Shown here piece by piece: positions 44,403-64,000 of a stretch of DNA of 64,000 nt. The notes beneath the pieces were generated by a model. It searched no databases. It saw nothing but the letters and a program-made list of their open reading frames with translations, and was not told where the DNA came from. This stretch comes from Marilutibacter penaei. Lineage in GTDB: Bacteria > Pseudomonadota > Gammaproteobacteria > Xanthomonadales > Xanthomonadaceae. The position numbers and the translations under genes were made by a program. The stretch is from contig NZ_JACHTE010000005.1 of the NCBI RefSeq assembly GCF_014145395.1, positions 248,001 through 312,000 on the forward strand. Reading direction: 5' to 3'. The stretch's first letter is position 1; each line of letters begins with the position of its first letter.

Positions 44403-44831
44403 ATGAAGAAGCAGCAAGGCTTTACCCTGATCGAACTGATGATCGTCGTCGCGATCATCGCCATCCTGGCCGCCATCGCTCTGCCGGCTTACCAGGACTA
44501 CGTGGCCCGCTCGCAGGTCACCGCTGGTCTGGCCGACATCCGTGGCGGCGTGACCGCTGCCGAAGAAATCATCAACAAGGGCAGCCCGACCACGTTCAAC
44601 ACCGCTGCAGAAATCGGCCTTCAGGCCAACACCGCGCGCTGCAGCGCCATCACCGTGAACGGTAGCGCCACCACCGGCGTGGGTACCATCAACTGCAATC
44701 TGGAAGGCAACCCGAAGGTGGCTCCGTACGCCGTCCAGCTGACCCGCAACACGTCGGGCGCTTGGGAGTGTGAAGTCTCCGGCGGCATGGACGAAAAGTA
44801 CGTTCCGCAGGGTTGTGCGCGCACGCTGTAA
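44403..44831 (+). CDS. pilA: Type IV major pilin PilA
   Basis: The main pilus subunit, 142 residues. The leader MKKQQG is cut by PilD before [20 protein letters not shown], and Glu5 of the mature chain is present. The globular head contains [11 protein letters not shown] and a C-terminal disulfide loop (Cys in WECEVSG and in PQGCARTL), plus a second Cys pair (ARCSAI, INCNLEG). ATG at 44403 follows a GGGGA site; the upstream open frame is not part of the protein. A sigma-54 promoter and a terminator enclose it as a single-gene transcript. Confidence 0.95.
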
Positions 44832-44848: not shown

Positions 44849-44877
44849 AAAGGGCGGGCGGTAGCTCGCCCTTTTTT
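44849..44877 (+). terminator. Rho-independent terminator after the first pilin gene
   Basis: AAAGGGCG / CGCCCTTT with a 10-nt loop is followed by TTTT, 17 bp past the pilA stop. It should limit read-through into the second pilin gene. Confidence 0.85.
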
Positions 44878-44972
44878 CTGACGAAGACTTTAGCAACCCG
44901 GCTCGTTTCCGGACAAAACCGACTCAAGCCCAAGCAGGACATTCCGGGCAGACAGCCACAGGGGGAATGGAC

Positions 44973-45386
44973 ATGAAGCAAGCAAAGGGTTTCACCTTGA
45001 TCGAGCTGATGATCGTCGTGTCCATCATTTCGATCCTGGCGGCAATTGCGATACCCCTTTACCAGGACTACGTCGCCCGCTCGCAACTCAGCGCTGGTTT
45101 GAGCGACATCAGCGGCGGCCGCAGTCCTTTCGAGTCCCAGGTCGTCGCTCAGAACAAGACGACCTTCACTCTGGATGAGATCGGGCTCAAGTCCCCGACG
45201 CCCCGCTGCAATCCATTGACGTCGCAAGTGAACGGTGACGGGAGTGGCTACATTCGTTGCGTGGTCGTCGGCACACCCAAAGTGGCCGGCGAGACCATTC
45301 AACTGACACGCAACACGAGCGGCGCGTGGACATGCGACGTATCGGCTGCCATCGAGAACAAACACAAGCCCACAGGGTGCCAATGA
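44973..45386 (+). CDS. Second type IV pilin, PilA paralogue
   Basis: A 137-residue pilin with the same leader form (MKQAKG before [18 protein letters not shown]) and Glu5. Helix and early head match pilA closely ([20 protein letters not shown]), while the rest of the head diverges. It keeps the C-terminal disulfide pair ([13 protein letters not shown]) and another pair (TPRCNPL, IRCVVVG). ATG at 44973 is best, since GGGGGA lies 8 nt upstream; an in-frame ATG two codons earlier is too close to that site. No sigma-54 box is visible before it, so it depends on read-through or another promoter. It may be an alternative major pilin. Confidence 0.9.
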
Positions 45387-45483: not shown

Positions 45484-47334
45484 GTGAAGTGGAAAGCCTG
45501 GCAGGCATGGCCCGCTTGGGTAATGATGGTGCCCATTACGATGCTTGTCGCGGCAGCGTTTTGGCCGGGCTTGAGTGGGCGTTTCATCTTCGATGACTAC
45601 CCCACCATCGTCAGCAACCCCGGAATCCATATCGACTCGCTTTCCTGGGAAGCCATCCAGAGAGCGGCAGGCTCGTTCAGTCAGGGGTACTACGGCCGCC
45701 CACTCGCCACCATCTCCTTGGCATTGAACTATCTGGCGGATGGGACCGACCCTTGGGGGTACAAACTGACAGGACTGTGCATACATGTCCTGAATACCCT
45801 GATCGTCTGGATCCTCCTCAGGCAGTTGCTGGGTATCCGGTCCGAGGAAGGCGAGAACTGGCCGAAACAAGCGGCCGCCGTCATCGCTTTCATCTGGGCA
45901 GTACACCCCTTGCAGGTCTCTCCTGTGTTGTACGTCGTACAACGCATGGAAACGCTTTCACTGTTGTTCGTGCTGCTGGCGCTCGCTTGCTACGTCAAGG
46001 CCCGGCGCAATCAGCTTTCTGATAGACCCAGCGCTTTCTGGTTTGCTGCCTGCCTGCCTCTGATGCTGTTGGGGCTCGCTAGCAAGGAAAGTGCCGCACT
46101 GTTGCCGGCGTACACCCTTTCACTTGAGATCGCAATCTTCCGCTTCCGTGCGAGTTCCTCTGCAAGTGAACGTCTCCTCAAGCGAACCTATGCTGTCGCG
46201 GTCTCACTCGCGTTGGGCGTCTATCTCCTCGTTGTCCTGCCTCACTACCTGACTGGCGATAGCTACGCTCTTCGAGACTTCTCTGCCTCTGAGCGCCTCA
46301 TGACCCAGATGCGGGTGCTCCCCATGTACCTGGGCCAAGTCCTGTTCCCGCGCCCAGACCAGCTTACGTTTTACTACGACGACATTATTGTTTCCACGGG
46401 ACTGCTATCGCCGCCGAGCACGGCTCTGGGAGCCTGCCTGCTTCTCTCGCTTGCATTCGTTGCCTTTTTCGTTCGACGCAAGGCGCCGATCGTGTCACTC
46501 GGGGTGCTCTGGTTTTTCGCGGCGCATGCAATCACGAGCAACGTGTTCCCGCTCGAGCACGCATTTGAGCATCGCAACTATTTTGCTTTGCTGGGTGCTC
46601 TCCTTGCATTGGCCGACATCGTCCGGCGCATCCCCATGCGTGACGGGCCTGCGCTGAAGTACGTGGCCATTGGCGGCATCTGTACCTTCTTGTTCGCTTT
46701 GACGCTGGTACGTAGCGCTACGTGGGGAAACCCACTTAATCTTGCGATGGAGTTGGCCAACGCAAACCCTCGATCAGCGCGCGCCAGCGTCGACTTGGCA
46801 GAGAAGTACGAGATGCTCGCCGGCGGAGATCCAGAATCCCCGTTCTACAGTCTCGCAATGACCGAGTTCCATCGGGGAGCAGGCTTAGCGTCTGCGTCTT
46901 CCCTTCCCATCCAGGGCGCCATCATGCTTGCCGCAGGCCAAGGGCGACCCGTACCGGAGGCATGGTGGGCCACCCTCGAAAGTAAACTTTCCACTGGCAC
47001 CATCAGTCCGCAGGACCACTACGCCATGTCCGGGCTCCTCACAGCCCGTGCGCGGGGGATGGCATTGGACGATGAGCATCTGGCAGCGGCTTACGAGGCG
47101 ATGGCGAACCGGAGCCAGTTGCCCGCGGGCATGTATGCGATGTTTGCGAATCACGCGCTGACCCGGCTCGAAGATCACGACCTCGCCGCGCGCCTGTTTG
47201 CAAGTGCGGTCGAGGCGGAGAAAGACGACCGGCATTATGCAGAGCGACTCGCTTCTGCCCTCCGGGCTGACGGGCATAACCAGGAGGCCCAAGCCGTTGA
47301 GGCGAAAGCCGCGGCGCTGAGGCTGGCAGATTGA
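45484..47334 (+). CDS. GT-C glycosyltransferase with TPR-like C-terminus (TMTC/PMT-like), possible pilin glycosyltransferase
   Basis: A 616-residue membrane protein. The first loop has the acidic pair of GT-C enzymes, GRFIFDDYPTIVSNPGI (D37, D38). About 10-11 membrane helices run to residue 420, and the last 190 residues are soluble, helical and TPR-like (HYAMSGLLTARARGMALDDE, DHDLAARLFASAVEAEKDD). This combination resembles TMTC and related protein O-mannosyltransferase-like families. Its place directly after the pilin genes suggests it moves a lipid-linked sugar onto pilin in the periplasm, but the acceptor is not shown. GTG start at 45484 with TAGGA upstream. Base composition is lower in GC than the pilus genes, suggesting transfer. 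Confidence 0.72.
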   Translation: MKWKAWQAWPAWVMMVPITMLVAAAFWPGLSGRFIFDDYPTIVSNPGIHIDSLSWEAIQRAAGSFSQGYYGRPLATISLALNYLADGTDPWGYKLTGLCIHVLNTLIVWILLRQLLGIRSEEGENWPKQAAAVIAFIWAVHPLQVSPVLYVVQRMETLSLLFVLLALACYVKARRNQLSDRPSAFWFAACLPLMLLGLASKESAALLPAYTLSLEIAIFRFRASSSASERLLKRTYAVAVSLALGVYLLVVLPHYLTGDSYALRDFSASERLMTQMRVLPMYLGQVLFPRPDQLTFYYDDIIVSTGLLSPPSTALGACLLLSLAFVAFFVRRKAPIVSLGVLWFFAAHAITSNVFPLEHAFEHRNYFALLGALLALADIVRRIPMRDGPALKYVAIGGICTFLFALTLVRSATWGNPLNLAMELANANPRSARASVDLAEKYEMLAGGDPESPFYSLAMTEFHRGAGLASASSLPIQGAIMLAAGQGRPVPEAWWATLESKLSTGTISPQDHYAMSGLLTARARGMALDDEHLAAAYEAMANRSQLPAGMYAMFANHALTRLEDHDLAARLFASAVEAEKDDRHYAERLASALRADGHNQEAQAVEAKAAALRLAD

Positions 47335-47362
47335 TCCGAACCTCACTAACAGGCCAGAAGCC

Positions 47363-48526
47363 GTGATCAACTCCCCCTATATCGTGTTCGCCGCACCTGA
47401 TATACACGACGAAGAGATCAACGAAGTCAGCGCATGCCTTCGTTCGGGATGGCTAGGGACCGGGCCGCGGGTGGCAAGGTTCGAAGCTGCCTTCGCGGGG
47501 TACAAGGGCGTCGACGCTTCGCAGGTCGCCGGCCTCAACTCCTGTACCGCGGCTCTGCATATCGCCATGTTGGCACTCGAACTGGAGCCCGGCAGCGAGG
47601 TCATTACCACGCCACTGACGTTCTGCGCCACCGCCAATGCCATCATCCACGCAGGTCTCGTGCCGGTGCTGGCGGACGTCGATCCCGTCACCCAGAACAT
47701 CGACCCGGCGGCGATCGAAGCCGCCATAACGCCACGCACCAGCGCAATCCTGCCGGTGCACTTCGCGGGTCGCCCTTGCGAGATGGATCGCATCACGGCC
47801 ATCGCGGAGCGACATGGACTTGCCCTGATTGAAGACTGCGCGCACGCCATTGAAACGGAGTACAAGGGACGGAAGGCGGGCACGTTCGGCGATTTTGGAT
47901 GCTTCAGCTTCTATGTCACCAAGAACGTCGCCACCGGCGAAGGCGGCATGGTCCTTGGACGCGACGCATCCCGCATCGCACGAGCCAAAGTGCTTTCACT
48001 CCATGGCATGAGCAAGGATGCGTGGCATCGTTTCAGCGACTCGGGCTACAAGCATTACCAAGTCGTTGAGAGCGGCTTCAAGTACAACATGATGGACCTC
48101 CAGGCGGCGATCGGGATCCATCAGCTCGCGCGCGTCGAGGCGAGCTGGCAGCGGAGGCAAGCGATCTGGTCCGTGTACGAGACCGCGCTGGCGCACCTCC
48201 CGGTGACCCTACCCGCGCCTGCCGCACCTGAGACGAAACACGCCCGCCACCTGTTCAATCTCCTGATTGACCCGGAAGCGAGCGGTATCACGCGTGACCG
48301 TTTCCTTGAGGCCATGCATGAAGCCGGCATCGGGACAGGTGTTCATTACCTATCGTTGGCGGAGCATCCCGTCTACCAGGAGCGATTCGGCTGGAGGCCC
48401 GAGCAATGGCCCCATGCTATGCGGCTGGGACGTACGACGGCCAGCCTCCCCTTGTCCCCCAAGTTGACGGAACACGACATAGCACGTGTTTGCAGAGCCA
48501 CGGAAAATTGCTTGACTGGCGGATAG
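47363..48526 (+). CDS. DegT/DnrJ/EryC1/StrS-family PLP aminotransferase (nucleotide-sugar type)
   Basis: A 387-residue PLP enzyme of the ArnB/PglE/WecE group, which puts an amino group on a keto sugar nucleotide. The PLP Lys is K187 in SFYVTKNVATGEGGM, with D158 and H161 in IEDCAHAIETE and the N-terminal GTGPRVARFEAAFA. GTG start at 47363, 28 bp after the glycosyltransferase. No dehydratase or other sugar-nucleotide gene is nearby, so the keto-sugar must come from elsewhere. It ends 13 bp before the stop of the convergent ATP-grasp gene. Confidence 0.88.
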   Translation: MINSPYIVFAAPDIHDEEINEVSACLRSGWLGTGPRVARFEAAFAGYKGVDASQVAGLNSCTAALHIAMLALELEPGSEVITTPLTFCATANAIIHAGLVPVLADVDPVTQNIDPAAIEAAITPRTSAILPVHFAGRPCEMDRITAIAERHGLALIEDCAHAIETEYKGRKAGTFGDFGCFSFYVTKNVATGEGGMVLGRDASRIARAKVLSLHGMSKDAWHRFSDSGYKHYQVVESGFKYNMMDLQAAIGIHQLARVEASWQRRQAIWSVYETALAHLPVTLPAPAAPETKHARHLFNLLIDPEASGITRDRFLEAMHEAGIGTGVHYLSLAEHPVYQERFGWRPEQWPHAMRLGRTTASLPLSPKLTEHDIARVCRATENCLTGG

Positions 48527-48539
48527 TTCCACGCGCTGT

Positions 48540-49715
48540 TCAGGAGACAAACCTCGCTACGCACCGCCTGAGCCATCGCGCCCGGACCCCGGGAAGCGAG
48601 CACGACCACACCGACACCATGGGCTTCTTTCGGACGGCGAGCGCAAGCGCCTTCAGCGTCTCTCGCCTGGGCACTCCGTCTCCTTTGAGAAGCTTCAGGA
48701 GGAACCGCTCCAGACTGATCCAGGAATGGACGGCGACATCAGTGTCCGCCCCCTGCAGCGCGCCTCCCAAGACCACTGCCCGCATGTCCGACAGCACGTC
48801 GAAGCCGGAGGCCTGCAATAGTTCGATCTGAAGCCATGGGCGCGGGTTCAGTTCGAGGAGCTTCGGGTTTCCGTCTGCATCTGCGAGAAAGGAAAGCTCA
48901 GCCACCCCGACCAGATCCAACGCGCCGACGATCGATTCGGTAGCCTCCCTGAGCACTTCGGACCCCGGGCACGTCTCCACCCAGCACGCACTCCCTCCCT
49001 TCCCAGGGAACTTCATCCGCTCTATCACCTCCGCGTAACGATACTGTCCGCTCGCGTCGCGAACGACACAGGCACTTCGCTCGCCTCCGCTAATGGGTTG
49101 CAGGAGAGGCTGCGCGACCCAAGTCTGGCCACGTTCGAACTCGGTTCGCAGCAGCTGTCGGACCCGGGCGAGTTGAAGATCGTGTTCGCGAAACAGCTTC
49201 ACACCGCCGGGTAGCGTGTCGCCCCATGGCTTGTGAACGGGCTTCAGCACAAACCGCGGGCCAAGAGTGTCAGCCACCCTCTCAAGATCGTCGAGACATC
49301 TAACTTCCTGCGTCACGGCAAGAAAGCGACCAAGCTCTTCGCGCTGCAGGAACTGGAATACCTCTGCCTTGTCCAGCCCGCCCTTGGACAGCGCTCTGCA
49401 ACGGGAGAGCCGGAGGTCCTGCCCTCGTGCTTCCATCGCATCGACGAGAATGCCCAAAGAGTCGTCTTCCGTTGCGATAGCCAGTACACCGGAAGTGCCG
49501 AAGCGCGAACGTAGCAGGCCTTCGAGATCCTCGAGTACAGCTTCGCGCGGCCCCGCAGGCGCAAAGTGCACTTCGCACCGCGGCACTCCCGCCAGCAAGG
49601 AGCTCGAACCCAGCGCGTAGACGAAGGCATACCCGTCCAGGGACACGCATCGCTCGACGACGGCCAACGATACCGCCTCCGCACCACCGGACACGATCAC
49701 GGTGGGCGTGCTCAT
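48540..49715 (-). CDS. ATP-grasp domain protein, carboxylate-amine ligase type
   Basis: A 391-residue soluble protein. It has an N-terminal pre-ATP-grasp domain (TVIVSGGAEAVSLAVVERCV), a central fold with FVLKPVHKPWGDTLPGG, and a metal-binding end AELSFLADADGNPKLLELNP with PRPWLQ. This pattern is shared by many enzymes that join a carboxylate to an amine using ATP. In this position it could attach an amino or carboxylic acid to an aminosugar made with the DegT enzyme, which is inference. ATG at 49715 overlaps the stop of the methyltransferase upstream (ATGA), so the longer open frame is rejected. It is the last gene of a six-gene operon. Confidence 0.75.
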   Translation of the reverse strand: MSTPTVIVSGGAEAVSLAVVERCVSLDGYAFVYALGSSSLLAGVPRCEVHFAPAGPREAVLEDLEGLLRSRFGTSGVLAIATEDDSLGILVDAMEARGQDLRLSRCRALSKGGLDKAEVFQFLQREELGRFLAVTQEVRCLDDLERVADTLGPRFVLKPVHKPWGDTLPGGVKLFREHDLQLARVRQLLRTEFERGQTWVAQPLLQPISGGERSACVVRDASGQYRYAEVIERMKFPGKGGSACWVETCPGSEVLREATESIVGALDLVGVAELSFLADADGNPKLLELNPRPWLQIELLQASGFDVLSDMRAVVLGGALQGADTDVAVHSWISLERFLLKLLKGDGVPRRETLKALALAVRKKPMVSVWSCSLPGVRARWLRRCVARFVS

Positions 49716-50410
49716 GAGCGTTTGGTGAAAACCCAAAGATAATTGGCGTATTGCCATGAGAAGGGTCCGGCGAACCGCTCCATCAGCCGTCGCTCCAACC
49801 TGGACAGCATGGGAAAGGCGCTTGTCGGAATGAGGCCGTAGCGGACCAGATAGATCCAGGGCCAGCGCGCGCCTCGTATCGCCCGCCTGCTCGCCAGCTC
49901 AAGTCCGCCTCGCGCGAATATCCCCGTCAAGTCTTCTTCGCGCATGTAGCGAGCGTCGCCACGCCTCAGGTTATCGATGACGACCACGTGCCCCCCCGGC
50001 TCAACATATCTGGCGACGGACTCGGCTATGCCTGCCACCCCCATCAGATGTAGCGAACGCATGACGTTCAGCAGGAAAGCGCAGGAAACCGAGCCATGCT
50101 CCAACGGCAGGTCGGGCAACGCCCCCACGCGGAAATCAGGCGTCGGGAAAAGCGCCCGGGCGGCTTCGATGACCCGCTGGGACGGATCGATGCCTACTAG
50201 GGAGTCGAATCCCAGCTCTGCGAGGCGGGCGGTCATCCTGCCATAGCCGCACCCGACATCCACCGCGACCCCGCCCGTCCGACCGAGCACCGACCGGATC
50301 GCATCCAACTGCAGGAGGCTGATGTACGCAGTCTTTCGACCCGCGCTGTCATGTGGGTCGAAGATATTGATCCCGGCATCGTCGAATACCGGCACGCTCC
50401 CCTTATCCAT
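49712..50410 (-). CDS. Class I SAM-dependent methyltransferase
   Basis: A 232-residue Rossmann-fold methyltransferase. Motif I is VAVDVGCGYGRMTARLAELG, followed by SLVGIDPSQRVIEAARALF and a later HVVVIDNLRRGD. The N-terminal residues (FDDAGINIFDPHDSAGRK) are unusual. ATG at 50410 lies inside the end of the flippase-like gene and overlaps the ATP-grasp gene downstream, so all are coupled. The substrate is unknown; sugar O- or N-methylation is plausible from the context. Confidence 0.8.
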   Translation of the reverse strand: MDKGSVPVFDDAGINIFDPHDSAGRKTAYISLLQLDAIRSVLGRTGGVAVDVGCGYGRMTARLAELGFDSLVGIDPSQRVIEAARALFPTPDFRVGALPDLPLEHGSVSCAFLLNVMRSLHLMGVAGIAESVARYVEPGGHVVVIDNLRRGDARYMREEDLTGIFARGGLELASRRAIRGARWPWIYLVRYGLIPTSAFPMLSRLERRLMERFAGPFSWQYANYLWVFTKRS

Positions 50411-51380
50411 TCCGCACCCCTGGCAGGAACAAAACGCCCAACAAAAGGTCCCCGGCAAGCATGGCGGCGCGAACCAGAACGGCGATACCCGCGACCACCG
50501 GATCCGGAAAGCCGGTGGCAAAGGCCGCGAACGTGAGTTCCCGGACACCCAGCCCGGAGGGCGTCACCAGCGCAACGAAGCCGACGACCCAGGAGATCGA
50601 GTAGAAGGCACACAATCTCAACGCGCCTTCCGTCGATACGTCGTCGCTCGCGAGCGAGAAAGCCAACCACGCGCTGACGTACACCGCCCAGGAGGTCGCC
50701 ATGTACAGGATCGCCTTCCAAAACCTTGGACTGCGCGTCGTGCGATGGAGATGGTTCACCCACCCAGCCATCCCTTTCCGCCGCAGGCGCGCCAGCAGCA
50801 GGTACGCGGGTCCGGGGCCAAGCAACAGCAACAGCAAGGCCGATTGCACCACCATCGGACGGTCCGGGCCGACGCCCAGGATAAGGATGACGGCCACGAG
50901 CAACGACATCCAGATGGTCAGCCCCATGAACGCGAGGTTCGCCGCGACCCACTGGCCAGGCGAGGCCAGATGTGCGGCATTGGTGGCCTGATAGGCCACG
51001 CCCAGGAAGCGCCCGGGTATGTGCTTCATCAGTTGACCCGCGAAGTGGAACCCGCCCAGAGCGTAGAATCCAAGGGAGCGGCCCGAAGCGCTCTCCATGA
51101 TCTCACGGAAAGCCGCGAAGGAAAGCAGCAAGCTCAAGAGCAGGAGTAAGAAGCTCCCGAGCCCGTATCCAGGCTGGATACTCCAGACGAAGCCCGCGAT
51201 TCGTCCCCACGCGCCGTTCAACAGCCACGCTGCCCACAGCAGCGTCACGATGACCAGGCACAGCGAGACGATCCGCAGCCACAAGGGCCTTGGCCGTCTC
51301 GTGGGGGAGCCCCGGCGACCTCGATCCTGCCCGATCATGTCCTTGAGGCGAACCTGCGGGGTGCTTTGATCATTGCTCAT
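50403..51380 (-). CDS. Lysylphosphatidylglycerol-synthase-like transmembrane protein (UPF0104/AglD type)
   Basis: A 325-residue inner-membrane protein with about eight hydrophobic helices. Typical of the flippase-like UPF0104 domain are HFAGQLMKHIPGRFLGVAYQ and FVALVTPSGLGVRELTF with their conserved Pro-Gly and Gly-Arg-Glu residues. Members accompany glycolipid and cell-envelope gene sets and may move or hold lipid-linked sugars; the activity is not established. It starts within the stop of GT4 (ATGA) and overlaps the methyltransferase. Confidence 0.82.
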   Translation of the reverse strand: MSNDQSTPQVRLKDMIGQDRGRRGSPTRRPRPLWLRIVSLCLVIVTLLWAAWLLNGAWGRIAGFVWSIQPGYGLGSFLLLLLSLLLSFAAFREIMESASGRSLGFYALGGFHFAGQLMKHIPGRFLGVAYQATNAAHLASPGQWVAANLAFMGLTIWMSLLVAVILILGVGPDRPMVVQSALLLLLLGPGPAYLLLARLRRKGMAGWVNHLHRTTRSPRFWKAILYMATSWAVYVSAWLAFSLASDDVSTEGALRLCAFYSISWVVGFVALVTPSGLGVRELTFAAFATGFPDPVVAGIAVLVRAAMLAGDLLLGVLFLPGVRNG

Positions 51381-52516
51381 CCGAGCAGCTTCCCAAGGAG
51401 ACTGCGAGCCGCGACGTCGACGTCAAAACGCGCCGCCATACACTCCATGGCAGGCTGGAACGAGACGGGGTTCCTTCTAAGGATTCTGGAGATGGCGTCC
51501 GAGAATGCCCGCGCTGTTACGTCCACCGCCAGTTCGCCGACACCCTGGCCCACCAGCGCAGGCAAGTCGCCGACCGGCATTGCGACCACGGGGCAACGAA
51601 GCTTCATTGCATCGGAAAACACCAGGGGAATGCTCTCGATGCGGGAAGGAATGAGCAAATAGTCCGCGTCGTTGATCGACGCCTCTGCAGCCTGCTTGTC
51701 GAGGAACCCTCCTGCATGTACCGGCCTCCCCGCACCCTGAAGGTCGGAAACCCTTCGGCGCACGGTCGCCTCCATCGGGCCACCTCCATTGATGCGAACC
51801 GACTCGATGCGATTCCAGTCCTCATCGGACAACAAGCCCAAGGCCTCAAGAAGAATGTCGACGCCCTTGTTGGCGTGCCAACGCCCCAGGAACGTCAGCA
51901 CGAAAGGGGCGCCGCCGGTACGGGATGCCGGTTGGCTGAGGATCCGCCGGGTGCTGGGGAGGAAAATCACCTCGCGATCTGCCAGCTTCTGCGTTTCCTG
52001 CGCCAACCCAAGCCCGTCAGAGAAGCAGTAGCGTCCCTGCCTGAGGACGAGCCTGAGAAACCACCGGACTACCGGCACGCGTCCCAGCGACCAGATGTCG
52101 CTTCCGAGAGTCCAGGTCGAGTACGGAACCGCGTGCTTCCCAGAGCAGCGCTTGGCCCAATAGCCGCACGGCAGGGCCCAAAGGGCCAGCACATGAGCCG
52201 TCGGACCGGAAGTCACCGCCCGCTCGGTCACCCGTGACCCGGAACGCATGACCCGGAAGGCCGCCACCAGATCCCTGAAGGACATGAAACTCAGCGTGGA
52301 AAGCGGCTTGTCCGGCGCGCGAAAGCGGAATACCTCGACACCCGGAGACCAGGTTTCGATGCATTCTCTTTCGCCCGGAGCCACGACCTTCACGCTGACC
52401 CGCTCCCCCAGGAGCTCGGCGAGATCCGATACGAAAGAGCCCGCGGCCTCGCGCCCGTCCCCCCGGATGGGAAACGACGTGGTCACCAGGACAATTGCAC
52501 CCGGACCGAGGGTCAT
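51377..52516 (-). CDS. Glycosyltransferase family 4 (GT-B fold)
   Basis: A 379-residue GT-B glycosyltransferase. The N-terminal domain starts IVLVTTSFPIRGDGREAAGS. The C-terminal donor domain has FVLTFLGRWHANKGVDILLE, a GGGPMEATVRRRV nucleotide-binding loop and LLIPSRIESIPLVFSDAMKL with the EX7E-like acidic pair. No membrane segments, so it acts at the cytosolic face on a lipid-linked or free acceptor. ATG at 52516 overlaps the upstream methyltransferase stop. The sugar is unknown. Confidence 0.87.
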   Translation of the reverse strand: MTLGPGAIVLVTTSFPIRGDGREAAGSFVSDLAELLGERVSVKVVAPGERECIETWSPGVEVFRFRAPDKPLSTLSFMSFRDLVAAFRVMRSGSRVTERAVTSGPTAHVLALWALPCGYWAKRCSGKHAVPYSTWTLGSDIWSLGRVPVVRWFLRLVLRQGRYCFSDGLGLAQETQKLADREVIFLPSTRRILSQPASRTGGAPFVLTFLGRWHANKGVDILLEALGLLSDEDWNRIESVRINGGGPMEATVRRRVSDLQGAGRPVHAGGFLDKQAAEASINDADYLLIPSRIESIPLVFSDAMKLRCPVVAMPVGDLPALVGQGVGELAVDVTARAFSDAISRILRRNPVSFQPAMECMAARFDVDVAARSLLGKLLG

Positions 52517-53232
52517 CCGCGACTCGCCAACACGGTGTAGCCACTGGTCATCGCGTCCCAGTCCGGGCAGCATTTCCCTCCGATCCAGGCAAGCAGGTTC
52601 ACCACCGGCACCGCACAGACAAGGAGCGGCAACAGCAGGACGGCGGGAGACCGGCGCCTCAACGCCTCACGCGCGACCCCTCCCAGCGACAAAGAGGCAA
52701 GAAGGCCTGCCGTCTCCAGCGCACCCAGGCCCGGCGTGGTCGCCTTGAGGATGAACCCCGCCGCCCGGAGTTCACGTTCCAGCCCATGCCGGGTGTAGCG
52801 TTGATAGTCGTGGGGTGCATCATGGATCGGGTAAAGGAAAGGCATGCTCAAAAGCAGAATGCCACCAGGACGCAGCACGCGTGCCGCCTCAGCACATGAC
52901 TCCCGAGGACATCGCAGATGCTCGAGGACCTCCAACATCACCACGGAGTCCACGCTCGCGTCGGCAATGGGCAGTCTCGAAGCATCCGCATACAGTGTCG
53001 GACGTGCCCCGTACAGTTCTCTTCCCGTCGCGGGGTAGTCCAGTCCCAAGTACGTGCAGTCGCGCGGCAAACACCGCTCTACCCAGCGATCCGCGCACCC
53101 AATGTCCAGTACGCGGCCAGGTGGCAGTGTAGCCAGCAATCCCCGGAGTTCTTCGGTACCACGGAGCAACCATTGCGGATGCAGTGGGGTCGCCTTCAGG
53201 CGCCGCACCCAACGGTTCAAGCGGGAAGCCAC
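52513..53232 (-). CDS. Class I SAM-dependent methyltransferase
   Basis: A 239-residue methyltransferase with motif I GRVLDIGCADRWVERCLP, the later VDSVVMLEVLEHLRCP and VLRPGGILLLSMPFLYPIHD. A hydrophobic C-terminal part (LLLPLLVCAVPVVNLLAWIG) may bind the membrane, which fits a lipid-linked acceptor. It starts 1 bp after the GT2 stop and overlaps GT4, so the whole set from GT2 to the ATP-grasp gene is one transcription unit. The substrate is unknown. Confidence 0.82.
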   Translation of the reverse strand: MASRLNRWVRRLKATPLHPQWLLRGTEELRGLLATLPPGRVLDIGCADRWVERCLPRDCTYLGLDYPATGRELYGARPTLYADASRLPIADASVDSVVMLEVLEHLRCPRESCAEAARVLRPGGILLLSMPFLYPIHDAPHDYQRYTRHGLERELRAAGFILKATTPGLGALETAGLLASLSLGGVAREALRRRSPAVLLLPLLVCAVPVVNLLAWIGGKCCPDWDAMTSGYTVLASRG

Positions 53233-53233
53233 C

Positions 53234-54100
53234 TCACTCCTCGTCCCGGCGTGCCGCCAGGTAGGTCAATCCGGTGATCTGCTCGCTTACGAGCCCGATC
53301 AGGAAGATGATCACCGCAGCGCTGAACAGCAGGGCGCTCATGTTGGTGAACCGCCCCATCGTCGCAAACGTCCAGGCGTAGTAACCCGCGCCCAGCAGGA
53401 AAAACGCCGCCGCCGCAGGGGCGAACAGTTTCAAGGGTGAGTACAGCGTCGCGATCCGGAAGATGATCAGCAGGAAACGCACCCCGTCGCGAAGCGGGCG
53501 TATGTGACTGCCGGTGCCGACCCGCTTGGCAACGGGAATGGGTACGTACGTCACTGGGTAGGCACTGCGGAAGAACGCCATCGTGCTGGTCGTGGGGTAG
53601 CTGAAGCCGTTCGGGAGCAGGTGTAGGAACTCCCGGAAGCGATCCGCGCGCACCGCGCGGAAGCCCGACGTGAGGTCCATGACCTTGTGCCCGGTCATCC
53701 AGCTGGCGAGCGTGTTGTAGAACCGGTTCGCCAGTCCCCGGTGCAGGTTCGCCTGGCCACTGCCGTCCCGCGCGCCCACGACCAGGTCGTAGCCTGCCTC
53801 GATCTGCTCCAGCAGCAGCGGGATATGCGCCGGATCGTGCTGGCCATCGCCGTCCATGAAGACGATGACGTCGCCCCCGGCCGCACGCGCTCCCCGCTTG
53901 ATCGCCGCGCCGTTGCCCATCGAATAGGGGGATGACAGCACCCTCGCGCCCAGGCGCGTGGCCACCTCGGCCGTATCATCGGTGGATCCGTCATCAACCA
54001 CGATGACCTCCGCCCCCGGCACGGTGGCGGCCAGCCCGGGCAGGGTCCGGGCCAGGCCGGCGGATTCGTTCTTTGCGGGCAAGACCACGGTAACGCGCAT
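53234..54100 (-). CDS. Glycosyltransferase family 2, polyprenyl-phosphate glycosyltransferase-like
   Basis: A 288-residue enzyme. The GT2 domain (1-210) has VVLPAKNESAGLARTLPGLA, VIVVDDGSTDDTAEVA and the metal-binding VIVFMDGDGQHDP. Two C-terminal membrane helices follow (APAAAAFFLLGAGYYAW, LLFSAAVIIFLIGLV). This is the layout of DPM/GtrB-type enzymes that make polyprenyl-phosphate sugars, which would feed the nearby GT-C enzyme. ATG at 54100 with AGGGGG upstream. It is the first gene of its operon and divergent from pilB over 123 bp. Confidence 0.85.
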   Translation of the reverse strand: MRVTVVLPAKNESAGLARTLPGLAATVPGAEVIVVDDGSTDDTAEVATRLGARVLSSPYSMGNGAAIKRGARAAGGDVIVFMDGDGQHDPAHIPLLLEQIEAGYDLVVGARDGSGQANLHRGLANRFYNTLASWMTGHKVMDLTSGFRAVRADRFREFLHLLPNGFSYPTTSTMAFFRSAYPVTYVPIPVAKRVGTGSHIRPLRDGVRFLLIIFRIATLYSPLKLFAPAAAAFFLLGAGYYAWTFATMGRFTNMSALLFSAAVIIFLIGLVSEQITGLTYLAARRDEE

Positions 54101-54223
54101 GCATCCCCCTTTCATCGAGCGAAAGAGTACCCTGAAACGGCGTTCCGGAAAGGTGCGCTGCGTCCGTTCGCCAAATGCCGGGATTGCGGTAAAGTCGTCC
54201 CGGGGAGAGTGCCTGGGGGCCAG

Positions 54224-55939
54224 ATGAATACGGTTTCGACCGCCAACCTGGTGGGAATCACGGGTATTGCCCGTCGGCTCGTCATGGACGGGGCCCTGGA
54301 CGAGGCCGCCGCCCGCGAAGCCATGGCCGCATCCACGGCGGACAACCGGCCCTTGTCCCTGTACCTGGTCGAGAAACGGCTGGTCAGCCAGCAGGCGCTG
54401 GCCGCCGCGAACTCGATGGAGTTCGGCATGCCCCTGCTGGACCCTGGCGCGCTGGACCCGGCGCAGACGGCCATCGGGACCGTGCCCGAAGAGATGCTCC
54501 GCAAGCACAACGTGCTGCCGCTGTACAAACGCGGCGGGCGGCTGTTCCTCGGCATCGCGGACCCCACCAACATCCATGCCCTCGATGAGATCAAGTTCAG
54601 GACGAACCTGGCCGTCGACGCCGTCCTGATCGACGACGAGTCCATTCGCCGGAACCTCGACCGCTGGCTGGACAACGCGGACGTCATGGAGGGGGCCAAT
54701 GACGAAGGGCTGGAGAACCTCGAGGTCGGTGGCAGTGACGATGAAATCGGCGACAGCGGTGTCGACGCCAAGGGCGACGACACCCCGGTGGTCAAGTTCG
54801 TCAACAAGGTGCTTGTGGATGCGATCCGCCGCGGCGCCTCTGACATCCACTTCGAACCCTATGAAACCGAGTACCGGGTTCGCCAGCGCATCGACGGCCT
54901 GCTGAAACAGGCGGCGAAGGTGCCGGTGAAGCTGCAGGCCCGCATCGCGGCGCGCCTGAAGGTCATGTCCCAGCTGGACATCGCCGAGAAGCGCGTGCCG
55001 CAGGACGGCCGCATCAAGCTGAACCTGTCCAAGACCAAACAGATCGACTTCCGCGTCAGCACCCTGCCCACGCTGTTCGGCGAGAAGATCGTGCTGCGTA
55101 TCCTCGACGGCAGCGCCGCGAAGCTCGGCATCGACAAGCTGGGGTACGAGGACGACCAGAAGGATCTGTACCTGAGCGCCATCGCCAAGCCCTACGGCAT
55201 GGTGCTGGTGACCGGCCCGACCGGTTCCGGCAAGACGGTGTCGCTGTACACCGCGCTGAACATCCTCAACGACGAAACGCGCAACATCTCCACCGTCGAG
55301 GACCCGGTCGAAATCCGCGTGCCCGGCATCAACCAGGTGCAGATGAACGTCAAGCGCGGCATGACCTTCGCGGCCGCGTTGCGCAGCTTCCTGCGTCAGG
55401 ATCCGGACGTGATCATGGTCGGCGAAATCCGCGACCTGGAAACCGCCGAGATCGGCATCAAGGCGGCCCAGACCGGCCACATGGTGCTCTCCACCCTGCA
55501 TACCAACGACGCCCCGCAGACCATCGCCCGCCTGATGAACATGGGCGTCGCGCCCTTCAACATCACCTCTTCGGTGACGCTGGTGATTGCCCAGCGACTG
55601 GCGCGCCGGCTGCACGATTGCAAGCGCCCGGTGGACCTGCCCGACCACGCGCTACTCGCGGAGGGGTTCTCGCAAGAAGAGATCGATGCAGGCCTGAAGA
55701 TCTACGAGGCCGTCGGCTGCCCCGACTGCACCGAGGGCTACAAGGGCCGGACCGGCATCTACCAGGTGATGCCGATGAGCGAAGAAATCCAGACGATCGT
55801 CTTGGCGGGCGGCAACGCACTGCAGATCGCGGAGGCAGCGCAGAGGTCGGGCATCCGCGACCTTCGCCAGTCCGCGCTGCTGAAGGTCAAGAACGGCGTT
55901 ACCAGTCTTTCCGAAATCAACCGCGTGACCAAGGACTAA
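54224..55939 (+). CDS. pilB: Type IV pilus extension ATPase PilB
   Basis: Hexameric ATPase that powers pilus assembly at the cytoplasmic face. The 571 residues have an N-terminal MshEN-type domain (about 15-160) and the GspE core with Walker A TGPTGSGKTVSLY, the Asp box SDIHFEPYE and the Walker B stretch DPDVIMVGEIRDLETAEIG. The zinc-binding loop is CPDCTEGYKGRTGI. ATG at 54224 (MNTVSTANLVGITG) is preferred over the in-frame GTG five codons earlier. It begins the pilBCD operon, 3 bp before pilC, and is divergent from the glycan operon. Confidence 0.95.
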   Translation: MNTVSTANLVGITGIARRLVMDGALDEAAAREAMAASTADNRPLSLYLVEKRLVSQQALAAANSMEFGMPLLDPGALDPAQTAIGTVPEEMLRKHNVLPLYKRGGRLFLGIADPTNIHALDEIKFRTNLAVDAVLIDDESIRRNLDRWLDNADVMEGANDEGLENLEVGGSDDEIGDSGVDAKGDDTPVVKFVNKVLVDAIRRGASDIHFEPYETEYRVRQRIDGLLKQAAKVPVKLQARIAARLKVMSQLDIAEKRVPQDGRIKLNLSKTKQIDFRVSTLPTLFGEKIVLRILDGSAAKLGIDKLGYEDDQKDLYLSAIAKPYGMVLVTGPTGSGKTVSLYTALNILNDETRNISTVEDPVEIRVPGINQVQMNVKRGMTFAAALRSFLRQDPDVIMVGEIRDLETAEIGIKAAQTGHMVLSTLHTNDAPQTIARLMNMGVAPFNITSSVTLVIAQRLARRLHDCKRPVDLPDHALLAEGFSQEEIDAGLKIYEAVGCPDCTEGYKGRTGIYQVMPMSEEIQTIVLAGGNALQIAEAAQRSGIRDLRQSALLKVKNGVTSLSEINRVTKD

Positions 55940-57202: not shown

Positions 57203-58066
57203 ATGGCATTCCTCGACCAGAACCCGGCCATCGGGTATCCGCTGGTGGCCGGACTGGGGCTGCTGGTGGGCAGCTTCCTGAACGTGGTGATCCTCCGCCT
57301 GCCCAAGCGGCTGGAGTGGGAATGGAAGCGGGACAGCCGCGAGATCCTGGGCGAGCCCGAGGATTACGACCCGCCACCGCCCGGCATCGTGGTGGAGCGC
57401 TCCCACTGCCCGAAGTGCAAGCGCCAGCTCCGATGGTACGAGAACGTCCCGGTCGTGAGCTGGGCCATCCAGGGCGGCAAGTGCCGGGGCTGCGGCGAGA
57501 AAATCTCCATCCAGTACCCGCTGGTGGAGCTGGTGACCATGCTGCTCGTGGTCGCCAGCGTGTGGCAGTTCGGGTTCGGCTGGCAGGGTTTTGGCGCGGC
57601 GCTGTTCAGCTGTTTCCTGGTGGCGCTGTCGGGCATCGATTTCCGCACCCAGCTGCTGCCCGACCAGCTCACCCTGCCCCTGATGTGGCTCGGCCTGATC
57701 GCCAGCGCGGACAGCCTGTACATGCCGACCAAGCCCGCCCTGCTGGGGGCCGTGGGCGGCTACCTCAGCCTGTGGACGGTGTGGTGGATCTTCAAGCAAC
57801 TGACCGGCAAGGAAGGCATGGGCCATGGCGATTTCAAGCTGCTCGCCGCCATCGGCGCATGGGTGGGCTTGAAGGGCATCCTGCCCACGATCCTGATCTC
57901 CTCCCTGGTCGGCGCCATCATCGGTTCGGTCTGGCTGGCCATGAAGGGCCGGGATCGGGCGACGCCGATCCCCTTCGGTCCCTACCTGGCGATCGCCGGC
58001 TGGATCGTGTTCTTCTGGGGCGAACCCATCGTAGGCGGCTACCTGCGCTATTCCGGGCTGGGCTGA
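57203..58066 (+). CDS. pilD: Prepilin peptidase / N-methyltransferase PilD
   Basis: Cuts the leader of prepilins before Phe and methylates the new N-terminus. The 287 residues have GSFLNVVILRLP in helix 1, the zinc-binding CPKC and CRGC pairs (about 71-95), and the two catalytic aspartates in GIDFRTQLLPD and GMGHGDFKLLA. About eight membrane helices. It processes both pilins in this window. It is followed by coaE after 31 bp, a common arrangement. Confidence 0.96.
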   Translation: MAFLDQNPAIGYPLVAGLGLLVGSFLNVVILRLPKRLEWEWKRDSREILGEPEDYDPPPPGIVVERSHCPKCKRQLRWYENVPVVSWAIQGGKCRGCGEKISIQYPLVELVTMLLVVASVWQFGFGWQGFGAALFSCFLVALSGIDFRTQLLPDQLTLPLMWLGLIASADSLYMPTKPALLGAVGGYLSLWTVWWIFKQLTGKEGMGHGDFKLLAAIGAWVGLKGILPTILISSLVGAIIGSVWLAMKGRDRATPIPFGPYLAIAGWIVFFWGEPIVGGYLRYSGLG

Positions 58067-58097
58067 CCGTCACGCGGGATCGCGCGACAATGCGCGC

Positions 58098-58709
58098 ATG
58101 AGCGACACCATCATCGGCGTCACCGGGGGCGTCGCCTCCGGCAAGAGCACGGTCACCCGCCTCTTCGAGGCGCTCGGCGTCGAGGTCGTTGACGCCGACG
58201 TCGCCGCGCGTGAAGTCGTTGCGCCAGGCAGCGATGGGCTGGCCGAAGTCGTGACGGCTTTCGGCGCCGGGGTTCTGGACGGCAGCGGGGCGTTGGACCG
58301 CGCGTCCATGCGCCAGCGCGTCTTCGCCGACGAGGACAGCCGCCATCGCCTTGAGGCCATCATCCACCCGCGGGTCCGCACCTGGATGCAGGAACGTTGC
58401 TTGGCAGCCACCGGTCCGTACGCGATCGCCGCGATCCCCCTGCTCGCGGAAGGCGGCGGACGTGCCACTTGGCCCTGGCTGGCACGCATCCTGGTGGTGG
58501 ACGTGCCGGAAGCCGTGCAACGCGAGCGCCTGATGGCGCGCGACGGCGTGGACGAGGCGCTGGCGCTGCGCATGATAGCGGCGCAGTCCGATCGTGCCGG
58601 GCGACTGGCGATCGCCGACGACGTGCTCGTCAACGACGGGCCGCTTGAAGCGCTGGATGCACACGTGGCGGCCCTGGACCGCCGCTACCGGGCGCTGGCC
58701 AGCGTCTGA
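58098..58709 (+). CDS. coaE: Dephospho-CoA kinase
   Basis: Last step of coenzyme A synthesis: phosphorylation of the 3'-hydroxyl of dephospho-CoA. The 203 residues have the P-loop GVTGGVASGKSTVTRLFEAL, then VVDADVAAREVV with the catalytic Asp, and IIHPRVRTWM and AIPLLAEGGG in the substrate and lid regions. It is the last plus-strand gene of the pilBCD-coaE run and convergent with the Nudix gene, with 25 bp between the stops. Confidence 0.95.
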   Translation: MSDTIIGVTGGVASGKSTVTRLFEALGVEVVDADVAAREVVAPGSDGLAEVVTAFGAGVLDGSGALDRASMRQRVFADEDSRHRLEAIIHPRVRTWMQERCLAATGPYAIAAIPLLAEGGGRATWPWLARILVVDVPEAVQRERLMARDGVDEALALRMIAAQSDRAGRLAIADDVLVNDGPLEALDAHVAALDRRYRALASV

Positions 58710-58734
58710 GCGGAGCGGGCGGACCGGGGCGGAT

Positions 58735-59685
58735 TCAGGCCGTCATCGGCCACAGGCTGCGGATCGCAGCGATGCCCTGGGCCCCGTGGCGACGCGCTTC
58801 ATCGAGATCGTCCAGCCCCAGGCCCCCGATCGCATAGATCGGCAGGCTGACCTGTTCGCGCAGCTGCGCAAAGCCTGCCCAGCCGATGCCGGCCACACCG
58901 GGATGGCTGGGCGTTTCCCGCACCGTCCCGAGCACGGCGAAATCGCAACCCAGGGCCTCTGCCTGGCGCAGCTCGGCAAGGTCATGGCACGAGGCGCCGA
59001 CCGGCACCGACCCGGGCAACGGGCGTTCGTCGAGCTCCCCCAGCTGGGCGGCAGTCAAGTGCACGCCGGTGCCGAGCAGCCGGGCCAGTGCGATGTCACC
59101 GTTGAGCAGGCACTCCACCCCGGCTTTGCGGCAGCGCCGTGCCACGGCCGACGCCAGTGCCCGGATCCGCTCGGGCGCCAGCCCCGGCACCCGCACCTGC
59201 ACGCGCTCGATGCCGGTCTTCAGCGCGGCATCCAGCCCCGCCAGCCAGCGACCGTCGTCTTCGCCGGGCAATGGCGTCACCAGGTAAAGCGGGGGCTGGC
59301 CCAGCGCGGCCACCACCGGCACGTCGGCCGGTGGCATGGTGTACCGGTCGAGCTTCTCCGGAGGCACCCAGACCAGCGCCTGCTGCTCGCGACCGCGCGG
59401 CGCCCCGTCCCAATCGTCGATCTCGCGGACTTCGAGGCGCAGGCGCTTGTCGGGATATTCCTGCGGCACGGTGATGACGTGCGCGCCCACGCGGGCCTCG
59501 ATCCCCAGCTCCTCGCGCAGTTCCCGGACCAGCGCCTCGTCGGGCGATTCACTGGCCTTGCGCTTCCCGCCGGGGAACTCCCAGCGACCGGCGAAATCAC
59601 GGCCCTCGGTACGCCGGGTCAACAGGACCCGACCTCGCGCGTCGCGGAGCACGCCGGCCACCACGTCCACGTGGCGCTTGCTCAT
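58735..59685 (-). CDS. Nudix hydrolase fused to a thiamine-phosphate-synthase-like domain
   Basis: A 316-residue fusion. Residues about 1-130 are a MutT-type Nudix domain that should hydrolyse oxidised nucleotides such as 8-oxo-dGTP, with the Nudix box GGKRKASESPDEALVRELRE followed by ELG. Residues about 135-310 form a ThiE/TenI-like TIM barrel (YLVTPLPGEDDGRWLAGLDA, VHLTAAQLGELDERPLPG, FAVLGTVRETPSHPGVAGIG, YAIGGLGLDDL). Such fusions occur widely in gammaproteobacteria; whether the barrel is active is not established. ATG at 59685 begins MSKRHVDVVAG, the usual start. A run of ten G residues lies 29-38 nt upstream on this strand. It follows secA after 94 bp. Confidence 0.9.
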   Translation of the reverse strand: MSKRHVDVVAGVLRDARGRVLLTRRTEGRDFAGRWEFPGGKRKASESPDEALVRELREELGIEARVGAHVITVPQEYPDKRLRLEVREIDDWDGAPRGREQQALVWVPPEKLDRYTMPPADVPVVAALGQPPLYLVTPLPGEDDGRWLAGLDAALKTGIERVQVRVPGLAPERIRALASAVARRCRKAGVECLLNGDIALARLLGTGVHLTAAQLGELDERPLPGSVPVGASCHDLAELRQAEALGCDFAVLGTVRETPSHPGVAGIGWAGFAQLREQVSLPIYAIGGLGLDDLDEARRHGAQGIAAIRSLWPMTA

Positions 59686-59779
59686 GCCATGCCGCATCCC
59701 TGCCGGTGCCACTCCCCCCCCCCTGCCCTCCGGCCCGGCCTTCATGGCCGTGGGCGGGCAGGGCCGACTGGACGCCGGG

Positions 59780-62524
<2,745 letters not shown>

Positions 62525-62572
62525 GGACGGACCGATGGTGTTCGTGGACGGAACCCGCAGGGCGGACGCCGG

Positions 62573-62600
62573 AAAAAAGAGGGGGGCGCAAGCGCCCCCC
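62573..62600 (-). terminator. Strong terminator or attenuator just upstream of secA
   Basis: On the minus strand GGGGGGCG-CTTG-CGCCCCCC is followed by TC and then TTTTTT. It lies downstream of the M23 gene and ends 48 nt before the secA start. It may end M23 transcripts or act as a secA attenuator. Confidence 0.8.
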
Positions 62601-62624
62601 GGCACTCCGATTGTAGCTGGGGGC

Positions 62625-62776
62625 GAGGAAGCCTGCTTGCAAGGCACTGCCTTGCAGGCGTCCGAGCGCCCGGAGCGGCTGTGACGCGCAGGGCCGGAAC
62701 GAGGAAGCCTGCTTGCAAGGCATGGCCTTGCGGGCTTCCGGGTGCCCGGAGCGACGGCGTGCCTGCGGGCGGCTCC
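62625..62776. repeat. 76-bp tandem duplication upstream of secA
   Basis: Two copies (62625-62700 and 62701-62776, approximate) each begin GAGGAAGCCTGCTTGCAAGG and contain a small hairpin GCAAGGCAxxGCCTTGC and GCCCGGAGCG. The copies differ at several positions in their second halves. Together with the terminator and a weak hairpin at about 62820-62842, they account for most of the 335-bp gap between the M23 gene and secA; I see no gene there. Confidence 0.65.
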
Positions 62777-62859
62777 CCGCGCGGATCGGCGCGCCTTCGG
62801 CCGCCCGGAATACAACGAAGGCCGCCCGGGGGCAGCCTTCATCGCATCGATACGGGATT

Positions 62860-63771
62860 TCAGCCCTGCAGCAGTGGCGACTGCTGGCTGAGGAAGTTGC
62901 GGGGGTTCACGACCTTGCCGTGTTCCCACACTTCGAAGTGCACGTGGGCGCCGGTCGAGCGACCGGTGGAGCCCGCCTTGGCGATCTCCTGGCCGGCGCG
63001 GACCAGCTCGCCAACCCGGCGGGACAGGCGCGAGTTGTGCGCGTACCGGGTCACGTAGCCATTGCCGTGGTCGACTTCCACCACCTTGCCGTAGCCGGAA
63101 CGGACACCCGAATAGCTGATGACGCCGTCCGCGACGGCGTAGACCGGGTCACCGGTGTTGGCGTCGAAGTCCAGGCCCTTGTGCAGCGCGCGACCGCCGC
63201 GGAAGGGATCGGCACGGTAGCCGAAACCCGAGGTGATGTAGCTGCGACCCACCGGTGAACGCGAGGGCACGGCGTTCAGGTCGAGCTGGCGGCTGAACAG
63301 CAGCGACTCCAGTACGGAGAGCTGCTCGCCCGAGGCCTTGAACTGCGCATCGAGCTGCTGCAGGCCTTCGTCGAGCTCGGGCTTGCTGATATCTTCCACC
63401 GGGCCTGCACCACCGACGCCGACGGGCTTCTCGAAGTCGAATTCGCCGTCCTGGAGCTGGCCGATGCGCGTCAGGCGCTCGCCCAGCGCGTTCAGGCGGT
63501 TCGCCTCGGCCTGGAGTTCGCCCAGGCGGGCAGCGAGCGCGTTGACCTCGCGCTGCGCCTCGCGCCGGGTATCCTCGATCTGCGCCTGTTGCGCCGCCAC
63601 CTCGCTCCGGAGCGAGGACGTGGACAACGCAGCGACGCCCAGGCCGATGCCGAGACCGGCCACCAGCAGCGCCGAAGCGTACACGCCGGGGCGGCTGGCG
63701 CCGAGGCGGTGGCCCCGGTCGAGCAGGCCGACGTTGCGAAGTCGCGGCGAAATGTATTTGTCGAAGGTCAT
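62860..63771 (-). CDS. M23-family (LytM) peptidase with coiled coil
   Basis: A 303-residue envelope protein. After a short cytoplasmic start, one membrane helix (about 32-52, [20 protein letters not shown]) anchors it. A coiled coil covers about 55-120 ([20 protein letters not shown]). The C-terminal LytM domain (about 180-290) has the zinc ligands in [20 protein letters not shown] and [16 protein letters not shown] and the HVHFEV motif, so it should cut peptidoglycan cross-links. Start ATG at 63771 is only 7 bp from the divergent DUF721 start. It precedes secA, the usual order in relatives. Confidence 0.9.
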
Positions 63772-63778
63772 GTGTCCG

Positions 63779-64000
63779 ATGTCTGATTCCAAAGCCAAGT
63801 CGCGAAGTGCCCGCCAATCGGCTCCGCAGGAAGCGCTGGACGCGCTGCTTGCCGAGCCTTCTGGCGATCCGATCCGCCGGGCCATATGGCTCGGCGAAGT
63901 CGACCGTCGCCTACATCCCCACCTGCCCCCTTCACTCGCCGAACATGCACGGCTTGCGAACATCAAGGGAAGCACGCTGGTTTTTGTCGTCGACGCTCCG
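63779..64000 (+). CDS. dciA: DUF721/DciA-family protein, 3' end outside the window
   Basis: The first 74 residues are visible: MSDSKAKSRSARQSAPQEAL, then a stretch with RRAIWLGEVDRRLHPHLPPS and LAEHARLANIKGSTLVFVVD. This pattern (basic start, then a helical DUF721 domain with an RL..HLP region and a LVF strand) matches DciA, the loader of the replicative helicase in most bacteria that lack DnaC. It is divergent from the M23 peptidase with only 7 bp between start codons. The rest of the gene runs out of the window, so the assignment is tentative. Confidence 0.72.
   Translation, partial: MSDSKAKSRSARQSAPQEALDALLAEPSGDPIRRAIWLGEVDRRLHPHLPPSLAEHARLANIKGSTLVFVVDAP

Follow-up and report, generated by a model that had tools for sequence, protein, structure and literature searches.

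In the accessory cassettes of Pseudomonas aeruginosa, as the accessible text of PMC11841053 describes them, the glycosyltransferases TfpW and TfpO are encoded beside the pilin gene and glycosylate the pilin, the cassette varies between strains and a terminator follows the pilin gene; a reference cited there titles TfpW a GT-C enzyme. PglL/WaaL-type O-oligosaccharyltransferases are likewise encoded beside a pilin gene and use a lipid-linked glycan (PMC3643930, accessible part), and in two of three strains of Xanthomonas vesicatoria two glycosyltransferase genes lie beside the pilin gene between pilB and pilC (PMC10333488, accessible part). Here we describe a locus of Marilutibacter penaei in a stretch of 64,000 nucleotides (hereafter the window; contig NZ_JACHTE010000005.1, positions 248,001 to 312,000) from a genome of 3.17 Mb. 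Open reading frames and family profiles place eight open genes between the end of the second of two pilin genes (45386) and the start of pilB (approximately 54209). In order these encode a GT-C glycosyltransferase with tetratricopeptide repeats (TPR), a DegT aminotransferase, an ATP-grasp-like protein, a methyltransferase (MT1), a UPF0104-like membrane protein, a GT4 glycosyltransferase, a second methyltransferase (MT2) and a GT2 glycosyltransferase, as a preliminary description of the window had listed them. Judged by sequence comparison, the locus is polymorphic across the family (Xanthomonadaceae), and the interval represents one of its alleles, an exchangeable cassette beside the pilus-fibre genes. 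We consider it probable that this is a type IV pilin glycosylation locus, whose products would assemble a decorated lipid-linked sugar, flip it and attach it to the pilus.

The GT-C gene starts 98 bases beyond the second pilin gene, an adjacency of transferase and major pilin of the TfpO/TfpW kind. The likeness extends to the GT-C type (TfpW), the strain-variable cassette and a terminator after the pilin gene; the hairpin found here is suggestive only, being one of nine terminator-like sites against 7.4 expected in shuffles. However, by their description TfpW and TfpO use O-antigen units or D-arabinofuranose, and the accessible text of PMC11841053 contains no description of an AglJ-like GT2 frame with a variable interior. 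PglL/WaaL-type enzymes possess a Wzy_C motif according to the part of PMC3643930 available, whereas the GT-C of the window has no Pfam match at E 0.1. Wzy_C was also absent among the 25 families listed of the 31 matched by 55 GT-C homologues, the other six being rarer, and a PglL-type identity was ruled out on the lack of this motif. The two X. vesicatoria genes similarly adjoin a pilin in the pilB-pilC region, but were noted without a pathway or a family-wide comparison in the accessible part of PMC10333488. No description of the GT-C/GT2 frame was recognised in the accessible open-licence literature.

The haloarchaeal AglJ-type pathway starts on a lipid monophosphate. AglJ is the best NCBIfam match of the GT2, and the fold of the GT-C resembles AglB and OST; the window locus, however, is bacterial and pilin-linked with a presumably O-linked acceptor, and its GT2 reaches 119.4 bits against an AglJ equivalog cut-off of 325, which places it outside that equivalog. 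O-antigen and capsule loci combine fixed flanks with swapped interiors. Conserved ends, variable nucleotide-sugar, glycosyltransferase and flippase genes and low guanine plus cytosine (GC) content recur here, the differences being a position inside the pilus cluster and a GT-C instead of Wzy/WaaL.

PilB was searched for in 198 genomes of the family, 184 of which were positive, and 120 loci upstream of pilB were taken for gene calling and clustering, chosen among the PilB matches listed and including all five PilB-positive relatives of the same genus (loci and genomes are labelled L and G respectively, with a number). The GT2 frame, defined as a minus-strand GT2 of at least 65% identity to that of the window within 3 kb of pilB, was present in 62 loci, 61 of which also carried a GT-C/TPR relative; a pilin was recognised in 55 of these 61. 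Under a strict test the last pilin lay less than 1.4 kb from pilB, with neither GT-C nor GT2, in 29 loci. The other 29 comprised seven whose GT-C is not accompanied by a GT2 frame and 22 devoid of both genes, where the last pilin was farther away (15) or not found (7). The pilin motif search misses divergent pilins, none being found in 6 of the 61 loci that carry GT-C as well as GT2 and in 7 of the 51 that lack the two genes. The earlier statement that pilA and pilB are normally close in relatives consequently describes 29 of the 120 loci, while 62 carry the frame; the term atypical suits the gene set and not the presence of a cassette as such. An insertion unique to this genome is ruled out by the frame in those 62 relatives, and the GT-C family stands beside pilins outside the family too. 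Across all 198 genomes, by hand count from the match lists, both GT2 and GT-C were found in 87, GT2 only in 2 (G014 and G024, both less than 84% complete), GT-C only in 8 and neither in 101; at E 1e-90 the GT2 search gave a single match in each of 89 genomes.

Across the class, 84 of 274 genomes encode a GT-C relative. Among 20 class-level loci around such relatives, a GT2 of the same type (54-64% identity) was present in 17, and a pilin was recognised in 14. The GT-C family is still located beside pilins in Pseudomonas, Marinobacter, Gilvimarinus and Roseateles, and in Pseudomonas chengduensis and the three other genera GT2 follows directly after GT-C. The next genes after GT2 in P. chengduensis are, on our reading of the translations, presumably Wzx-like, methyltransferase-like and GT4-like. 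Several loci (e.g. L021, L036 and L127) carry tandem GT-C paralogues of different subgroups behind a single pilin. Five others (L019, L035, L068, L111 and L112) possess a pilin and a GT-C but no GT2, and no gene was called in their interior; such systems may, like TfpO, draw their glycan from another source. A contig labelled as a Rhizobium sp. metagenome-assembled genome (L140), which is probably mis-binned, encodes a window-like pilin, GT-C (45%), a UPF0104-like protein, GT2 (74%) and pilB (71%).

The architecture is polymorphic and O-antigen-like, with conserved ends and an exchanged interior. Across the 63 frame loci (62 from the family and the window) 129 positions of GT2 were identical in at least 62. 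Median pairwise identity was 78% for PilB and 77% for GT2 as against 36% for GT-C, and correlation with PilB identity fell from PilR (r 0.74) to GT2 (0.32) and GT-C (0.24). The five relatives of the same genus possess four other cassettes and one empty site (L011). DNA homology with them extends up to the pilin N-terminus (approximately 44500-44520) and then breaks, resuming for good inside GT2 (approximately 53250) in L009, L010 and L012 and just before pilB in the empty L011; in four relatives with a longer left flank it also spans genes read as sucCD and pilSR. The closest relative, L008, exhibits additional patches of homology in GT-C, DegT, GT4 and MT2. Thirty interior cluster representatives comprised 10 glycosyltransferases, 7 methyltransferases, 6 nucleotide-sugar enzymes, 2 Wzx, 4 other proteins and 1 with no match.

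The GC content of positions 45484-54100 is 62.7%, compared with 69.3% for positions 1-44000 and 58001-64000 of the window. Individual cassette genes range from 59.6 to 66.4% (window mean 67.9%), and four 60-base blocks, including that at 46561, have 47-50%. The low GC and the blocks near 50% previously reported are thus real, but the pilus genes are not near 70% as had been stated: pilB has 64.8%, pilC 62.1% and the two pilins 62.5% and 58.1%, and only pilR (a gene name we assigned from our own reading) reaches 68.7%. GC could be compared between interval and flanks for 51 loci, and in 41 of them the cassette interval had the lower value, with a median difference of 3.9 points. With a frame in 62 of 120 relatives, a variable interior and this depressed GC, the eight genes are not conserved core genes of average composition, and a pilin-directed glycan cassette with lipid-linked assembly, as first proposed, is still the best reading.

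Coordinates are collected in Table 1. GT-C and DegT are co-oriented with the pilins, and the remaining six genes are reversed and point at those two. Support from family, or from fold in the case of GT-C, is moderate to strong for seven of the eight genes and weak for the ATP-grasp-like protein.

Table 1. Features of the pilin-pilB interval and its borders (positions of the window)
Feature	Position	Strand	Evidence or remark
Pilin 1 (type IV pilin; likely acceptor)	44403..44831	+	Pfam Pilin, N_methyl; start at 13 protein letters (not shown)
Intrinsic-terminator-like hairpin with six-T run, after pilin 1, between both pilins	44856..44871	+	Suggestive only
Pilin 2 (adjoins GT-C; likely acceptor)	44967..45386	+	Pfam Pilin, N_methyl
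GT-C membrane glycosyltransferase, C-terminal TPR; predicted pilin glycan transferase; left frame gene	45484..47334	+	
DegT/DnrJ sugar aminotransferase, ArnB/PseC-like	47363..48526	+	PF01041 E 2.4e-123
ATP-grasp-like protein; predicted amide or amino-acid ligase	48540..49715	-	Weak ATPgrasp_Ter
S-adenosylmethionine (SAM) methyltransferase MT1	49712..50410	-	Methyltransf_11; homologues in L056, L096
PF03706/UPF0104-type membrane protein; predicted flippase	50403..51380	-	PF03706 E 2.3e-5, under Pfam cut-off
GT4 glycosyltransferase (GT4 group)	51377..52516	-	PF13692; co-occurs with DegT group
SAM methyltransferase MT2	52513..53232	-	Methyltransf_11
GT2 (AglJ/DPMS/ArnC-like); predicted polyprenyl-phosphate sugar synthase; right frame gene	53234..54100	-	129 positions shared by at least 62 of 63 loci
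pilB, right flank	54209..55939	+	T2SSE match

In the pathway that we propose, GT2 would load the first sugar onto undecaprenyl phosphate (Und-P) and GT4 would add a 4-amino-deoxy sugar produced by the DegT aminotransferase. An acyl group, plausibly an amino acid, would be attached to this amino sugar by the ATP-grasp-like protein, and methyl groups by MT1 and MT2. The UPF0104-type protein, to judge from slot-swapping, would then flip the lipid-linked glycan, and GT-C/TPR would move it onto the adjacent pilins.

The GT2 groups with dolichol-phosphate-mannose synthase (DPMS), ArnC and AglJ, and we take it to possess C-terminal transmembrane segments. PMT and ArnT, whose folds are nearest to the GT-C of the window, are examples of GT-C enzymes supplied by the products of DPMS and ArnC. 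GT2 and GT-C might accordingly add a single Und-P-linked sugar to pilin, the interior decorating or extending it through undecaprenyl diphosphate and a housekeeping WecA. The direct succession of GT-C and GT2 in Pseudomonas, Marinobacter, Gilvimarinus and Roseateles is consistent with this account. PF02397 was absent from the 62 family intervals and that of the window, and none of the PF00953 matches listed fell within them (judged by eye), in keeping with GT2 as the starter; all 63 genomes possess PF00953 genes outside the intervals, as the account would need. We regard it as rather unlikely, since a flippase candidate is present in 61 of the 63 frame loci and five loci with GT-C and without GT2 have no called gene from the last GT-C to pilB, which indicates that GT2 belongs with the interior and not simply with GT-C.

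Translocator profiles were built from clusters of the same 63 frame loci, and assigned a Wzx (MOP) protein to 34, a UPF0104-type protein to 25, an ABC transporter to 2 and none to 2; no locus had two, where an overlap of Wzx and UPF0104 in 13.5 loci was expected. The two loci lacking an assignment are L119, which is cut by a contig end, and L050, which encodes another membrane protein with one weak, unrelated Pfam match. Applied to 87 further loci, from which 13 overlapping the first set had been taken out while near-duplicates were left in and ABC matches weaker than E 1e-30 dropped, the same profiles yielded 33 Wzx, 24 UPF0104, 9 ABC, 21 with none (many of which end at 10 kb or at a contig end) and again none with two. 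Profiles with the protein's own cluster left out assigned 24 UPF0104, 22 Wzx, none with both and 17 with neither. In Pfam at E 0.1, PF03706 was found in 8 of 11 UPF0104-assigned proteins (4 above cut-off; none in L064, L063 and L028) and Polysacc_synt types in 6 of 7 Wzx-assigned proteins (4 above cut-off, L071 and L012 below; none in L110). ABC transporters occupy the flippase slot at L031:10510-12255 and, as cluster 140, in L105, and the same type accounts for the nine ABC assignments in the further set.

A flippase role for COG0392 has been predicted from archaeal genomics and the related MprF domain implicated in translocation of lysyl-phosphatidylglycerol (PMC5898192), and GpgF of P. aeruginosa has a flippase role predicted without assay (PMC12713373); the accessible parts of both sources do not describe a locus in which UPF0104 interchanges with two established types of flippase. 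The slot-swapping supports a similar predicted role here, in which the UPF0104-type protein would flip the lipid-linked glycan. Beyond the last GT-C, cassettes with UPF0104 have a median length of 6.3 kb and those with Wzx one of 10.2 kb (p 4e-6), as might be expected if UPF0104 were a glycosyltransferase accessory and no flippase, its exclusivity with Wzx arising from two unrelated cassette lineages. This explanation is unlikely, given that none of the 150 loci (63 and 87) combines any two of the three unrelated translocator types, the finding of Wzx and UPF0104 each with several GT-C subgroups, and the MprF-domain and COG0392 predictions in the accessible part of PMC5898192.

The predicted structure model of the GT-C exhibits a GT-C membrane fold whose nearest relatives are PMT and ArnT, the absence of other folds from this comparison carrying no evidential weight. 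A single-sequence phmmer search of the PDB gave no matches, a GT-C profile search matched TPR parts, and a viral structure library gave no GT-C match at E 0.001. With PilB controlled for, GT-C divergence in 53 loci follows that of the neighbouring pilin (partial r 0.30, p 0.001) and is unrelated to the interior (r approximately 0, p 0.57); within three GT-C subgroups the correlation with pilin was 0.50-0.65 without the PilB control. Fold, position and divergence with pilin together support a predicted role of GT-C/TPR in transferring the glycan to the adjacent pilins. That the interior instead builds a surface polysaccharide or part of lipopolysaccharide and lies beside the pilins by location only, GT-C acting on a lipid or another protein, is very unlikely: the interior enzymes are indeed O-antigen-like, Wzx included, no upstream same-strand pilin motif was seen within approximately 4.3 kb in 7 of 80 named GT-C loci (hand count; by script, 48 of the 80 had one within 2.5 kb) and 6 of 20 class-level loci lacked a recognised pilin, but GT-C tracks pilin sequence, the pilin association persists in the four genera named above, and a PF02719 gene (WbpM-like by our reading) and a PF00953 gene lie approximately 1.2 kb apart on another contig of the genome, which suggests a separate O-antigen locus.

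With regard to the sugar, the DegT protein is nearest to the ArnB and PseC types, with ArnB the best solved relative, and reaches the curated cut-off of none of the NCBIfam equivalogs listed. Groups around the DegT and GT4 of the window were delimited at 55% and 42% identity respectively, thresholds fixed after the matches were known; all five loci of the DegT group, among 62, also carry the GT4 group, which occurs in 8 of the 62 (Fisher p 9e-6). This co-occurrence suggests that one amino sugar is probably made by DegT and transferred by GT4. The PF02719 dehydratase-type gene mentioned above (E 7e-105) could supply the keto-sugar.

ATP-grasp and MT1 occur together in the window, L056 and L096; L008, L028, L034 and L040 have instead a methyltransferase, an FAD oxidoreductase and a GNAT-type acyltransferase. 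The ATP-grasp label given earlier is weak by sequence, with an ATPgrasp_Ter match in the window of 18.7 bits (E 0.0016) against a cut-off of 29.1 and weak matches in all three family members; three homologues have in common an ELN.R stretch that is presumably ATP-grasp-like. The family was found in 4 of 198 family genomes, lying between GT-C and GT2 in each. Its occurrences among the 274 class genomes number two, namely the genome itself and one weak match. The latter (L229, G394:C77:8024-8572, E 5e-12) is a distant relative from another family of the class. In the sister cassette of L096 an Asp/Glu/hydantoin racemase gene (PF01177; 11018-11905, minus strand) adjoins the ATP-grasp gene, a hint that the ligase would add an amino acid, which the racemase may name. 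Amide and methyl groups are putative details of the glycan.

Several observations weigh against the predicted pilin glycosylation locus. No clear acceptor-site signature distinguished cassette pilins from others, the best Ser/Thr column (p 6e-5) being uncorrected and confounded by phylogeny. The correlation of GT-C with pilin could stem from joint transfer of adjacent genes. Interior content was measured coarsely, 965 of 1378 pairs having no common cluster, and in the gtcB subgroup the four pairs with at least three common interior clusters have closer GT-Cs (median 73% against 40%). Foldseek alone gave no GT-C match at E ≤0.001, and seven of the 120 loci carry GT-C without GT2. The single-sequence model of the ATP-grasp-like protein (pLDDT 34) was left unused, and its ligase role is a prediction. 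The UPF0104 protein of the window scores 24.5 bits against the PF03706 cut-off of 33.4 and is not a formal member; since proteins in the same slot of L113, L098, L010 and L100 pass the cut-off, it is read as a divergent relative.

A more specific form of the proposed pilin glycosylation pathway, to which we assign somewhat less than an even chance, is a modular 'archaeal-style' pilus coat. An AglJ-like GT2 would make a monophosphate start, an exchangeable interior (here with an ATP-grasp amino-acid amide) and one of Wzx, ABC or UPF0104 would follow, and the coat would be completed by a GT-C/TPR oligosaccharyltransferase that is matched to its pilin and tolerant in its choice of glycan. If true, UPF0104 would represent a third general class of flippase for lipid-linked oligosaccharides.

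What appeared to be one odd cassette thus becomes a family-wide natural swap experiment, in which species differ in their interiors between homologous ends, as O-antigen or capsule loci do. The putative flippase function of the wide but poorly understood UPF0104/COG0392 family becomes directly testable by Wzx exchange, and the candidate pilin transferases may take many glycans, a property of use in glycoengineering. For the bacteria themselves, the locus would provide a variable pilus coat met by phages and hosts, and the likely benefit, following the P. aeruginosa precedent in the accessible text of PMC11841053, would be protection from pilus-binding phages or altered adhesion.

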